Positions 37,642-64,000 of a stretch of DNA of 64,000 nt are shown here, piece by piece. The position numbers and the translations under genes are program-made. The notes beneath the pieces were generated by a model. The model made no database searches, had not been told where the DNA came from, and worked only from the letters and a program-made list of their open reading frames with translations. This DNA comes from Flavivirga sp. 57AJ16 (GTDB lineage: Bacteria > Bacteroidota > Bacteroidia > Flavobacteriales > Flavobacteriaceae): NCBI RefSeq assembly GCF_028736925.1, contig NZ_JAQZAT010000001.1:62001-126000 (forward strand). The letters run 5' to 3'. Within the stretch, counting starts at the first letter, position 1. Every line of letters starts with the position of its first letter.

Positions 37642-37890
37642 AATATTTTATTGTTGGAAGCATGAAGTTGGAAGCTCGAAGTCAACCCTTCGAAACCCAT
37701 CCTCCGTAATTCATACTTCGGTCTTCGCGCTTCATGCTTCGTACTTCATTCGGTCTTCGTGCTTTAATCTTTATTAACAGATACTTCGACCCTTCGATAA
37801 ACTCAGGGCAGGCCAATATTAGCATGACAGAACATCTATAAATGATCTCTTTGTTTTTATTTATTCAAATTCATAAATCAAAAATCTACA
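37642..37890. other. Spacer with degenerate short repeats upstream of the response regulator gene
   Basis: This spacer is rich in short repeated words (GAAGTTGGAAGCTCGAAG, CTTCGGTCTTCG, ACTTCGACCCTTCGATAAAC) typical of dispersed flavobacterial repeats. No open frame was seen. A promoter for the response regulator should be here if the array isolates it from the kinase gene. Confidence 0.45.
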
Positions 37891-38180
37891 ATCGTTAATC
37901 GTCAATCATCAATCATCAATCATCAATCGTCAATCATCAATCATCAATCGTCAATCATCAATCATCAATCATCAATCATCAATCGTCAATCATCAATCAT
38001 CAATCATCAATCATCAATCGTCAATCATCAATCATCAATCATCAATCATCAATCGTCAATCATCAATCATCAATCGTCAATCATCAATCATCAATCATCA
38101 ATCATCAATCATCAATCATCAATCATCAATCATCAATCATCAATCATCAATCATCAATCATCAATCATCAATCGTCAATC
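37891..38180. repeat. Heptamer tandem array, about 41 units of ATC(A/G)TCA
   Basis: There are 290 bp of uninterrupted 7-bp units, mostly ATCATCA with scattered ATCGTCA. The G-containing units recur in higher-order patterns such as one G unit per five, which implies duplication of 35-bp blocks. The array begins inside the TGA stop codon of the sensor kinase and fills the space towards the response regulator. Every frame through the array contains stops, so no read-through protein is possible. Confidence 0.95.
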
Positions 38181-55229: not shown

Positions 55230-55555
55230 GCGGGATTAATTCAACCAGCTACTTTAAGTGCGCAGTGCCTGCTTCTTAAAGTAGGGTTATTTCTTTTATT
55301 TACAGATCCCGCCCTACAGCGGGATTAATTCAACCAGCTACTTTAAGTGCGCAGTGTCTGCTTCTTAAAGTAGGGTTATTTCTTTTATTTACAGATCCCG
55401 CCCTACAGCGGGATTAATTCAACCAGCTACTTTAAGTGCGCAGTGCCTGCTTCTTAAAGTAGGGTTATTTCTTTTATTTACAGATCCCGCCCTACAGCGG
55501 GATTAATTCAACCAGCTACTTTAAGTGCGCAGTGTCTGCTTCTTAAAGTAGGGTT
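55230..55555. repeat. 89-bp tandem hairpin array, 3.7 copies
   Basis: Units start at 55230, 55319, 55408 and 55497 (period 89), and the fourth stops after about 59 bp. Units 1 and 3 have CAGTGCCTG and units 2 and 4 CAGTGTCTG, so the array looks like a duplicated dimer of 178 bp. Each unit carries two inverted repeats: ATCCCGC..GCGGGAT and CTACTTTAAG..CTTAAAGTAG, the latter being the 3' hairpin found after the DUF420 stop codon. The array lies on the 3' side of the DUF420 gene. Confidence 0.95.
55516..55551 (-). other. Structured 3' hairpin after the DUF420 stop codon
   Basis: On the minus strand: CTACTTTAAG, AA, GCAG, ACA, CTGC, GCA, CTTAAAGTAG. This makes a 10-bp helix, an AA/GCA internal loop, a 4-bp helix and a small loop. 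It begins 7 nt after the TAA stop, following TGAAACC. The same layout with compensating pairs is found at 62303-62339. Confidence 0.7.
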
Positions 55556-55558
55556 TCA

Positions 55559-56092
55559 TTAATAATACGGTGAAATCATGATATATACAATCACACCCGT
55601 AACCGCTACATACAACCACAACGGAAATGTTATTCTTGCTATTTTTTTATGTTTTTCTATATTGTTCGTGATAGCTCTAACATAGGTAATCAATACAAAC
55701 GGAATCACGATGATTGACAATAATATATGTGTTAGCAATATAAAATAATAGATATATTTAATGGGGCCTTCGCCGCCAAACTTAGTTGAATCGCTCGTCA
55801 TATGGTAGGCTACATACATCACTAAGAATGACACAGAAAGCACAATGGCCAACTTCATTAATTTTTCATGCGCTGCCCTATTTCCCTTTTTAATTTGAAA
55901 CACCGCCAATAATAAAACCAATGCTGTCACACCGTTTATCGATGCATAAATAGGCGGGAGAAACGTTAATGGTTCAACATTTGGGATCTTTACTCCAAAT
56001 AAAATAGCTACGACGACAGGTATTAATACTGATAATACGATTATTAATTTATTGTATTTTTTTTCGTCTATAATATTTTTATTTTCAATCAT
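55559..56092 (-). CDS. DUF420 membrane protein (CtaM-like oxidase assembly factor)
   Basis: This 177-residue protein has five hydrophobic helices, with conserved FLPPIYASINGVTALVLLLA, AAHEKLMKLAIVLSVSFLV, YVAYH and LLTHILLSIIVIPFVL plus KHKKIARITFPLWLYVAVTG. His residues within helices could bind haem or copper. DUF420 includes CtaM, needed for haem-A-type oxidase activity in Gram-positive bacteria. Its place beside SCO and oxidase genes fits. It is followed directly by a hairpin array. Confidence 0.88.
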   Translation of the reverse strand: MIENKNIIDEKKYNKLIIVLSVLIPVVVAILFGVKIPNVEPLTFLPPIYASINGVTALVLLLAVFQIKKGNRAAHEKLMKLAIVLSVSFLVMYVAYHMTSDSTKFGGEGPIKYIYYFILLTHILLSIIVIPFVLITYVRAITNNIEKHKKIARITFPLWLYVAVTGVIVYIMISPYY

Positions 56093-62159: not shown

Positions 62160-62290
62160 GAGGGTGTCTAAAAAGTCTTTATAATTTGATTTGTCAGGTT
62201 GAGCCTGTCGAAACCGATATTGATTATCAGTAAGTTAAAAATATTTCGACAAGCTCAATATGACATCGAACTTACTTTTTAGACACCCTC
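62160..62290. repeat. 131-bp nested palindrome (GAGGGTGTCTAAAAAGT ends)
   Basis: The outer arms GAGGGTGTCTAAAAAGT (62160-62176) and its exact complement (62274-62290) enclose a second pair, GGTTGAGCCTGTCGAAA type (62192-62213) and TTTCGACAAGCTCAATAT (62244-62265). It is MITE-like, non-coding, and has no transposase in the window. Confidence 0.8.
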
Positions 62291-62302
62291 TAGTTCAACT
62301 AA

Positions 62303-62339
62303 CTATTTTAAATGCGTTGTAAACAACTTTTTAAAATAG
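62303..62339 (-). other. Structured 3' hairpin after the RemB-like stop codon
   Basis: On the minus strand: CTATTTTAAA, AA, GTTG, TTTA, CAAC, GCA, TTTAAAATAG. It has the same helix - AA/GCA internal loop - helix arrangement as the hairpin after the DUF420 gene, with different but complementary bases. It begins 7 nt after the TAG stop, following TGAAACA. Confidence 0.7.
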
Positions 62340-62346
62340 TGTTTCA

Positions 62347-64000
62347 CTAAAAATCAAAATACCAATTAAACAAATCGGTTCTAATTCCAAAATTAAACCA
62401 GACGGTATTGTTTTTAAAGGTCGCTGTCGTTTCTGCTTCTGGATTAAAATTTCTAAAACTAATATCTGTAAACACCTTTAGGTTAGATGCTGGGTTAATA
62501 AGATAACCTGCTTGTAAATTACCGTTAAAAGTTTTGGTTTTTATACCTTGTCCTACTTTAACATTCGTATCAAAAGGTCTGTCATTATAATCTCTATAAA
62601 CATCACCTCCATAACTAAAATTATCTGTGCCGTCATTAAAATCCAGCCCACGCACACCATAAATAAGTTTTGCATCTACAAACCAGCGTTTATAACGATA
62701 ACGTCCAATCAATATGGCTTCACTAAAATTCGCACCCCATAGATGCGCCATCGGTTGGTTATTATGCGCATAGTTTAATACAATGGTATTATGCGAATAG
62801 GTATAAGGCCTTACGCTGTTATATTCAAATTGCAACAACAAATTGTCCACTTTAAAAGCATTAAAATACTTAAGCCCCAATTGATAGCCAAACTTATTTT
62901 TCCAACTTTTTTCACCGCCTTTAACATCACTAAGAGAAAATTCATCTAAAATAAATTGACCATATACATTGACATGATCGTTCCATTTATATTTGGCCGA
63001 TGCCCCAAGAAGTGCATTTCCTGCGCCTTGTCCTGTCTCAAACTCAATAGCTCTAAAGAATATAATGGGATTTAGATAATTAATATCAAAACCCCGGTCG
63101 TTAGAGTTGGTCCAAAGCACCGATTCGAATAACCCAATATTTAATCGTTTGGACACATTCCAACTTAAATAATGGTTTGCAATGTACTTGGTTAAAAAGG
63201 CCTTATCGGCTACAACCTCTGGTCTTACATCTTTTAACCACATCCATGTATTGGTATATTTTATTTTCCAAAACTTAGTATTTAACTTTAAAAAGGGGTG
63301 TGGACTTGTTACATCACTAAGCAATAATGACCGATACCCATCGCCTATAAAATTTTTACCATGTCCAAATTGAACATTTATAAACTTAGCTGGCGAATAG
63401 GACAAGTAAGCTTCTGCAACAGGGTAATCGTAAGAATCTGTTTTAAACCGCTTTGCAATACCTCGACCAGGAATAATTGCAGGGTCGGGACCAAAAGCCT
63501 TTAAGCTTTCTGCATATTGATTTACATATTGGGCAAATCTGCCTTGGCTTTCAAATACTGAAGTATAGAAATTAAACTTTCCCCCTAAACCTCCTTGAAC
63601 TAGAATACCTCTTGTATTATTGTATGTTGAGCTAAAATCAGCATCGGTATCTTTACCTACTTGCAAATCGAATATGGGATCTACTGTAAACCAATAATCC
63701 TTCCCTTGCAATTGTACTAAATGCTCATTCCACAGTTTTTTGCCCGCCCATGTATCTGCTTCCTTTTTTAGTTTTTCTTTTTCGGCCTTAAAATCGTAAT
63801 ATTTAGAAACCTCATCATACATAAATGGCTTTGAAGCTGTATGACTATTGGTTCCAACAAGATTCATCTGGCGATCAAACCTTGAATAATCACTATGTGT
63901 AAATGGAATGTTCAATTGACTGTTATAGGCTTTATTTTCAAAAGCCTTTAAATTGGCGTTAACTTTGTCAAACTCTGCTTTAGATTGCTGTTCTAGTTTA
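62347..64000 (-). CDS. RemB-like gliding/capsule-assembly outer-membrane protein (5' end outside window)
   Basis: The frame is open to the window edge, so the N-terminus is missing; 550 residues are visible. The start-like TTG at 63915 is not a real start, since open sequence continues upstream (KLEQQSKAEFDKVNANLKAF). Features resemble the Wzi/RemB group: YWFTVDPIFDLQVGKD, YNNTRGILVQGGLGGKFNFY, PAIIPGRGIAKRFKTDSYDY, FGHGKNFIGDGYRSLLLSD, GFDINYLNPIIFFRAIEFE and a C-terminal WFNFGIRTDLFNWYFDF barrel strand. RemB is a gliding-associated outer-membrane protein in Flavobacterium. Assignment is by recalled similarity. Confidence 0.85.
   Translation of the reverse strand, partial: KLEQQSKAEFDKVNANLKAFENKAYNSQLNIPFTHSDYSRFDRQMNLVGTNSHTASKPFMYDEVSKYYDFKAEKEKLKKEADTWAGKKLWNEHLVQLQGKDYWFTVDPIFDLQVGKDTDADFSSTYNNTRGILVQGGLGGKFNFYTSVFESQGRFAQYVNQYAESLKAFGPDPAIIPGRGIAKRFKTDSYDYPVAEAYLSYSPAKFINVQFGHGKNFIGDGYRSLLLSDVTSPHPFLKLNTKFWKIKYTNTWMWLKDVRPEVVADKAFLTKYIANHYLSWNVSKRLNIGLFESVLWTNSNDRGFDINYLNPIIFFRAIEFETGQGAGNALLGASAKYKWNDHVNVYGQFILDEFSLSDVKGGEKSWKNKFGYQLGLKYFNAFKVDNLLLQFEYNSVRPYTYSHNTIVLNYAHNNQPMAHLWGANFSEAILIGRYRYKRWFVDAKLIYGVRGLDFNDGTDNFSYGGDVYRDYNDRPFDTNVKVGQGIKTKTFNGNLQAGYLINPASNLKVFTDISFRNFNPEAETTATFKNNTVWFNFGIRTDLFNWYFDF

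Follow-up and report, generated by a model that had tools for sequence, protein, structure and literature searches.

The window, by which we mean the whole 64,000-nucleotide stretch of Flavivirga sp. 57AJ16 DNA that was analyzed, contains two minus-strand genes that each end at a small hairpin. One is a DUF420 gene, and the other is a gene that the original prediction had named RemB-like and that has no Pfam match. The original prediction placed the two hairpins at 55516-55551 and 62303-62339 of the minus strand, and the sequence bears out both positions. A covariance model built from three of the window copies finds five copies of the element in the window, four of them in an array and one at the RemB-like gene. 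The features are listed here by window position, where H1 is the hairpin just mentioned, H2 is a second hairpin that follows it, and the feet are the short conserved sequences on either side of H1.

55559..56092, minus strand: DUF420 gene (PF04238)
55503..55564, minus strand: first copy of the element, H1 with feet TTAATGAAAC and GTTGAATTAA, at the 3′ end of the DUF420 gene, for which it provides the stop codon
55516..55551, minus strand: H1 of the first copy, with 10 bp, an AA/GCA bulge, 4 bp and a 3-nt loop
55484..55503, minus strand: H2 of the first copy, a GC-rich hairpin (ATCCCGC..GCGGGAT) after H1, read from the sequence
55414..55473, minus strand: second array copy, without the TTAATG left foot
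55325..55384, minus strand: third array copy
55236..55295, minus strand: fourth array copy, with a further palindrome (TGCTGAACTTGCTTCAG) within its H2 loop
55229..55555, minus strand: 89-bp tandem array of 3.7 units, headed by the first copy
62347..63915, minus strand: RemB-like gene
62290..62352, minus strand: single copy with feet TTAGTGAAAC and GTTGAACTA, at the 3′ end of the RemB-like gene
62303..62339, minus strand: H1 of the RemB copy
62160..62290, minus strand: unrelated MITE-like insert with perfect 17-bp terminal repeats GAGGGTGTCTAAAAAGT

Read on the minus strand, H1 of the DUF420 copy is CTACTTTAAG-AA-GCAG-ACA-CTGC-GCA-CTTAAAGTAG and H1 of the RemB copy is CTATTTTAAA-AA-GTTG-TTTA-CAAC-GCA-TTTAAAATAG. 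Both hairpins have a stop codon, TGAAAC and one further base on the 5′ side, and three bases followed by GTTGAA on the 3′ side. With DNA parameters, both fold more stably than their shuffles (z = −5.2 for the DUF420 copy and −3.4 for the RemB copy). In both, TTAAT/ATTAA or TAGT/ACTA lengthens the fold on the outside, with a remaining GA/GA mismatch that the earlier description did not include. That description had also pointed to an identical 7-nt distance from the stop codon to the hairpin. The spacing is indeed present in both copies, but it is not an independent fact because the left foot of the element itself carries the stop codon (TAATGA or TAGTGA). The MITE-like insert comes after GTTGAACTA, at the expected start of H2, and G005 has no insert there (here and below, G numbers are genomes, C numbers contigs and L numbers loci of our set). 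All Rfam matches on the window are weak and sub-threshold; two or three fall on the MITE-like insert, which is overlapped by such matches to AaHKsRNA41. Elsewhere in the window, positions 37871-38180 hold a heptamer array of 44 copies of TCATCAA.

The two window hairpins are copies of a large, dispersed family of small DNA elements in flavobacteria. With a threshold of E ≤ 10, the covariance model matches the window's own genome 34 times, 5 times inside the window and 29 times outside it. Matches at E ≤ 1e-3 number 29, of which 24 are outside the window. Among 60 genomes searched, 16 have matches at E ≤ 0.1, namely the own genome, all 11 congeners and four genomes of other genera. The four richest genomes searched with the model hold 24-30 copies each, and the other genomes with matches hold 1-10. 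We also scanned named genomes for stretches carrying both 10-base feet, with everything else left free, and obtained at least 120. The original prediction had proposed a covariance-model search for further copies in related genomes, and such copies are present both throughout the congeners and in the named stretches. Titles among the 80 matches listed are mostly Flavobacteriaceae (Arenibacter, Gelidibacter, Kordia, Aquimarina, Polaribacter, Dokdonia, Salegentibacter and others), and the few listed pattern matches from other groups (Bacteroidales, Draconibacterium, Chlorobiota) are metagenome bins. A chance origin of the hairpin is excluded because at least eight of nine arm bases are paired in 118 of the 120 pattern matches listed, compared with 4.8% of shuffled cores. 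Three foot matches on viral contigs, none with H1 in the folds as read, were set aside as chance matches. A literature search that covered titles and the starts of abstracts found no description of the repeat, and a text search with the foot word gave no bacterial-repeat paper by title among the matches listed.

The compensatory structure that had been proposed from two copies holds across the family, where all 14 H1 pairs vary on both sides. We used two alignments, both of which were fitted to the model and so lean towards it. In the named set, with 103 distinct rows from the matches listed, 96.1% of 2081 cells pair and both-side changes occur in 14 of 14 H1 pairs, whereas structures slid along the same listed matches are 25-43% paired; the seven foot pairs carry little information here, as the search pattern largely determines them. 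In the genus set, which was found by the model and not by the pattern and has 74 distinct rows, 94.9% of cells pair and 20 of 21 pairs show both-side changes. The bulge of H1 is also conserved, with AA on its 5′ side in 81 of the 103 rows among the matches listed and GCA, GAA or GTA on its 3′ side in 78. The GA of the foot mismatch is found on the right in 68 of 74 genus-set rows and on the left in 51, the lower left count being due in part to inner array copies that have no left foot. H2 follows directly after the right foot: of 117 named copies listed, 80 have the complement of its 6-base arm no more than 75 bases away, compared with 1.8% of shuffles, and the arm letters are compensated among named copies (TCCCGC, CCCCGC, TTCCGC, TCCTGA and others). 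From one genus to another, the right end shows no conservation past these two hairpins.

We next consider how the copies lie relative to genes, which could be scored for 101 of the 120 listed copies, the others having too little flank. The original prediction expected further copies to lie mostly right after stop codons, but the upstream stop is overlapped in only 8 of the 101. A co-directional ORF lies upstream of 58, divergent ORFs surround 25, and 2 sit inside an ORF of at least 90 aa. The suggestion of a conserved RNA structure fares poorly on these same counts, given the copies between divergent ORFs, the share with a co-directional ORF upstream and a DUF420 stop codon that the element itself supplies. 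In contrast, the view that the hairpin is not a simple terminator is upheld by both window copies, neither of which has a T-run after H1. An intrinsic terminator was accordingly rejected, on the missing T-run directly after H1 and on the 25 of 101 listed copies between divergent ORFs. As for the proteins encoded within 2.5 kb of named copies, the most widespread clusters among the matches listed look like housekeeping genes; named by eye, they presumably include an ABC-F-like ATPase in 12 of the listed loci, a DUF4293-like gene in 8 and DnaJ in 4.

The presence of the element is patchy from one genome to the next, and empty sites can be recognized. At DUF420, where we inspected the flanks of 21 of 30 loci, 9 of the 12 genomes of the genus carry the element, the site is empty in G002, G007 and G008, and there is no element at the 9 inspected loci of other genera. 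The element provides the DUF420 stop codon, as filled alleles read TAT TAA while the three empty alleles are one codon longer and read TAT ATT TAA or TAT GTT TAA. The RemB site is filled in 2 of the 12 genomes (G000 and G005) and in none of 6 other genera. Of the 12, only G000 has the L012 site filled, and only G000 and G003 have the L016 site filled. The element interrupts GTTTAT-TTTATTTT, the empty L016 sequence, without a clear duplication, and the empty sites compared show no clear target duplication, although their T-rich joints are ambiguous. The 3′ end of RemB in G001, G003, G007, G008 and G009 (L255-L257, L260, L262) carries a different repeat, of the TTCCTGCGAAGGCAGGAATC type, at or a few bases from the stop that is filled by the element in G000 and G005, making this one site with two repeat families.

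The left end of the element has a short target. In the 120 copies listed, the bases before the left foot are T at −4, −3 and −2 in 93, 94 and 104 copies, respectively, and A or T at −1 in 108. The alternative offered in the original prediction, a site-specific element, agrees with a left end placed 3′ of TTT(A/T) in most listed copies and with site occupancy that differs between species. Terminators are also preferred: a terminator-like hairpin with a T-tract precedes 34 of the 111 listed copies with sufficient flank, compared with 66 of 2220 noncoding control positions. Flanking direct repeats of at least 12 exact bases were found in only 2 of the 110 listed copies whose flanks were long enough (L160 and L148), a test that duplications shorter than 9 bases could escape. 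L160 has further element copies close by in addition to its repeat. At L148, from Arenibacter, a direct repeat of ~33 bases with one mismatch lies on both sides as if the target had been duplicated, and a mechanism without duplication does not predict this.

The tandem arrays have junctions of a particular kind. We counted 17 clean arrays out of 24 loci, after dropping 7 with more than three core mismatches, and in 15 of the 17 the similarity between the first copy and the first inner unit starts at H1, only 1-7 bases being shared upstream of it. The inner units are without the TTAGTG foot, with L060 and L130 as exceptions. Repeated cutting immediately 5′ of the hairpin would be expected to leave such junctions, while random slippage need not give them.

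To place the element relative to the replication fork, we used G004, which is a one-contig genome, and the contig G003:C1; 3 matches on G003:C2 and all matches of G008 and G001 were left out, and same-strand matches within 10 kb were merged. The origin and terminus were placed by eye from third-position GC skew. The G-rich strand was taken as the leading strand, which makes the TTAGTGAAAC-bearing strand, or top strand, the lagging-strand template. G004 has this orientation at 22 of its 24 loci and G003:C1 at 15 of its 18. Pooled, 37 of 42 loci have it, and 5 of the 42 contradict the rule. The p value is 4e-7 for an expectation of 0.5 and 3e-5 when the coding bias is taken as the expectation (58.4% of sampled coding bases on the leading strand, from 74 of 80 samples, 6 near boundaries having been dropped). 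A strict set, limited to E ≤ 1e-3 in G003 and with the boundary loci of G004 removed, gives 32 of 36. A coarse automatic fit of origin and terminus, which was made first, gave 19 of 24 for G004 and 15 of 18 for G003:C1, and the lower G004 value means that the fork result depends on where the replichore boundaries are set. The orientation of the element tracks the fork (37 of 42) more closely than it tracks genes (58 of 101 among the matches listed).

Orientation on the lagging-strand template also marks single-stranded IS200/IS605 transposons, as described in passages of PMC5371812. The element is like IS200/IS605 in this respect and in its short T-rich 5′ flank, its lack of a general long target duplication and its hairpin near the left end. 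It differs in that no TnpA gene with these ends was found at 30 Y1 loci and in that its right end varies between genera. PATEs are non-autonomous derivatives of IS200/IS605 elements. The closest structural likeness is to the E. coli group 2 REP sequences, or REPtrons, of TnpA-REP (RAYT), which are also intergenic palindromes with a lower stem, an AA bulge opposite G-C on the 3′ strand and an upper stem, and which are likewise strand-asymmetric, clustered and dispersed in many intergenic copies. According to the sections of PMC8266576 that deal with this mismatch, AA-GC is conserved in E. coli REP, the activity of TnpA-REP is severely affected when mutations make this mismatch pair, and the enzyme acts on one strand only; the AA mismatch lies on the same strands in the element and in REP. 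The same sections give the unpaired state of the bulge more weight than its letters, which makes the AA-G likeness less telling than it might seem.

The element also departs from REP in several ways. Its feet are TTARTGAAAC and GTTGAAYTAA, with no GTAG tag, and no flanking RAYT was found at the loci inspected; its arrays are direct tandem repeats and not inverted doublets, its target is a T-tract, it has the second hairpin H2, and its copy number is low for REPs. The repeats called REP in the portions of the literature we draw on have GTAG- or CGTC-type tags. The 78 copies of the genus set, found by the model, show no GTAG consensus where a REP has its 5′ GTAG or GTGG tag at the hairpin foot, their left foot being mostly TTARTGAAAC; the named set was selected by its feet and so cannot bear on the tag. 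Although the element behaves like a REP, testing found neither the GTAG tag nor, at the loci inspected, a flanking RAYT, and so we do not file it as one.

Our preferred reading, which we hold with some but not great confidence, is that this is a REP-like, non-autonomous element that is moved as folded single-stranded DNA, probably by an HUH (Y1) enzyme. A folded strand with a conserved mismatch, the strand asymmetry, the short 5′ target and the orientation on the lagging-strand template together point to HUH/Y1 chemistry, from which we infer a single-stranded DNA intermediate. In Flavobacteriia, the hairpin would serve as the recognition and mobility core of the element. The top strand, which consists of TTAGTGAAAC, H1 and its AA/G(N)A bulge, GTTGAACTAA and H2, would fold once it is exposed as lagging-strand template, and a candidate HUH/Y1-type nuclease-transposase would bind the bulged hairpin and the feet strand-specifically and cut at the feet. 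The single strand might then be carried to another fork and joined 3′ of TTT(A/T), often in the T-tract of a terminator, and repeated nicking just 5′ of the hairpin could build tandem arrays whose inner units have no left foot. More tentatively, we raise the possibility of a REP-like family across Flavobacteriia with its own end code (TTAGTGAAAC/GTTGAACTAA) and an HUH enzyme encoded away from its hairpins. This family would jump as lagging-strand template into terminator T-tracts and so colonize gene ends with little harm, even bringing tandem stops (TAGTGA/TAATGA) able to end a reading frame that it enters. With its different end code, target rule and fork signature in many flavobacterial genera, the family offers a substrate on which single-strand transposition can be tested outside Proteobacteria, as well as a handle for seeking its enzyme.

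The main rival, which we regard as unlikely, is retro-insertion, in which a small structured RNA would be reverse-spliced or reverse-transcribed into the lagging-strand template behind terminators, in the manner of a group IIC intron with its enzyme acting in trans. The portion of PMC8919778 that treats insertion sites reports that bacterial-C group II introns insert right behind rho-independent terminators with a strong strand bias, and the element resembles them on both counts; the GA/GA and AA/GNA internal loops would suit RNA too. However, the same portion scores introns as on the 'lagging strand', a polarity that may differ from that of the element. In addition, Rfam on eight element loci with many copies found no group II intron at gathering score and only two tRNAs, and the unit is ~85 nt with no domain V seen. 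We think it unlikely as well that the hairpin is a host structural RNA or DNA feature, such as a 3′-end stabilizer, terminator accessory or protein-binding site, that is under selection and spreads only secondarily. The DUF420 copies do keep most of their pairing across 9 genomes, and at 8 of the 120 named loci listed a copy lies 56-136 bases from one same small membrane-protein gene, which we take to be DUF4293. Against this stand the gene counts given above (25 of 101 listed copies between divergent ORFs and only 58 with a co-directional ORF upstream) and the varying presence of the element among congeners. Moreover, the DUF420 hairpin of G001 (L227) is the exact reverse complement of that of G009 with unchanged feet, so the palindrome can be rewritten or inverted in place. 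Such inversion or rewriting could by itself keep the arms paired, and therefore paired changes at one locus do not alone prove selection on RNA. More generally, compensatory pairing should not be taken as a sure sign that an RNA is functional.

An integron attC-like site, a hairpin recombined by a tyrosine integrase, is a highly improbable reading. The integron R′ box has the consensus GTTRRRY, which the right foot GTTGAAC fits, and attC sites share with the element a folded hairpin with mismatches and conserved ends. The left foot GTGAAAC, however, is not a full complement of the right foot, owing to the GA/GA mismatch, so that no fully complementary R box is present, and the copies are dispersed rather than arranged as gene cassettes. 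An integron integrase model scored over its curated cut-off in 0 of 16 genomes, with weaker matches below it in all 16 and in all 14 control genomes. We give a little more credit, but still very little, to the idea that the element is the REP of a resident RAYT of the Bacteroidetes subclass 2.6. As characterized in the subclass descriptions of PMC6006769, which allow a comparison by description only, this subclass occurs mostly in Bacteroidetes and has flanking structures without GTAG that are called 'atypical'. All 12 genomes of the genus have Y1 open frames of 185-220 aa, and most of the frames inspected have the Y motif YIHNNP given there for subclass 2.6, while most read SHVH-type where those descriptions have NH[LIV]H. 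But H1 is absent from all seven RAYT loci inspected. The RAYT genes at L087, L088, L098 and L102 have on both sides a palindrome of their own (..CCACTA..TAG.GG..) that is distinct from the element, L085 has this palindrome downstream, and L082 and L083 have other repeats. Gelidibacter G024, moreover, has elements and no such RAYT gene that we could find.

Returning to the reading of a non-autonomous element moved by an HUH enzyme, we looked for that enzyme near the copies. Among the PF01797 loci examined, drawn from a longer match list, 0 of 30 had the element within ~1.5 kb of the Y1 gene, and a looser scan of the 30 for feet plus fold gave nothing convincing. For a second Y1 group, the element occurs at 1 of 30 loci examined, again from a longer match list, which is about what copy density predicts. 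In several genomes the Y1 domain of this group is open in frame with an apparent coproporphyrinogen oxidase. Within the genus, a PF01797 search finds the group in 6 of 12 genomes; G003 and G008, both of which are rich in copies, are not among them. With tblastn of Y1 proteins against 187 element loci, we obtained weak 67-aa matches (31%, E ~7e-4) in L058 and in the overlapping L014, L023 and L025, and one strong match of L103 in L158, which we take as its coproporphyrinogen-oxidase half. L103 itself (385-1887, on G006:C20) is a single 501-aa frame with a Y1 (IS200-like) domain in frame with coproporphyrinogen III oxidase (PF01797 and PF01218). Several further genera have open frames of ~490-550 aa with the same Y1 domain, the fusion half being confirmed in L103 only.

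Finally, some copies hold other palindromes at mirrored places within the two feet (L054:3300-3330, L055:3388-3470, L063:4903-4990 and L058:4300-4830). They are CCACGC..GCGTGG, CCCGCC..GGCGGG or, as a longer stretch of about 480 bp, a sequence with CTGCC..GGCAGG at its ends, and they separate TTAGT from AAAC or GTTGAA from CTAATCCC.
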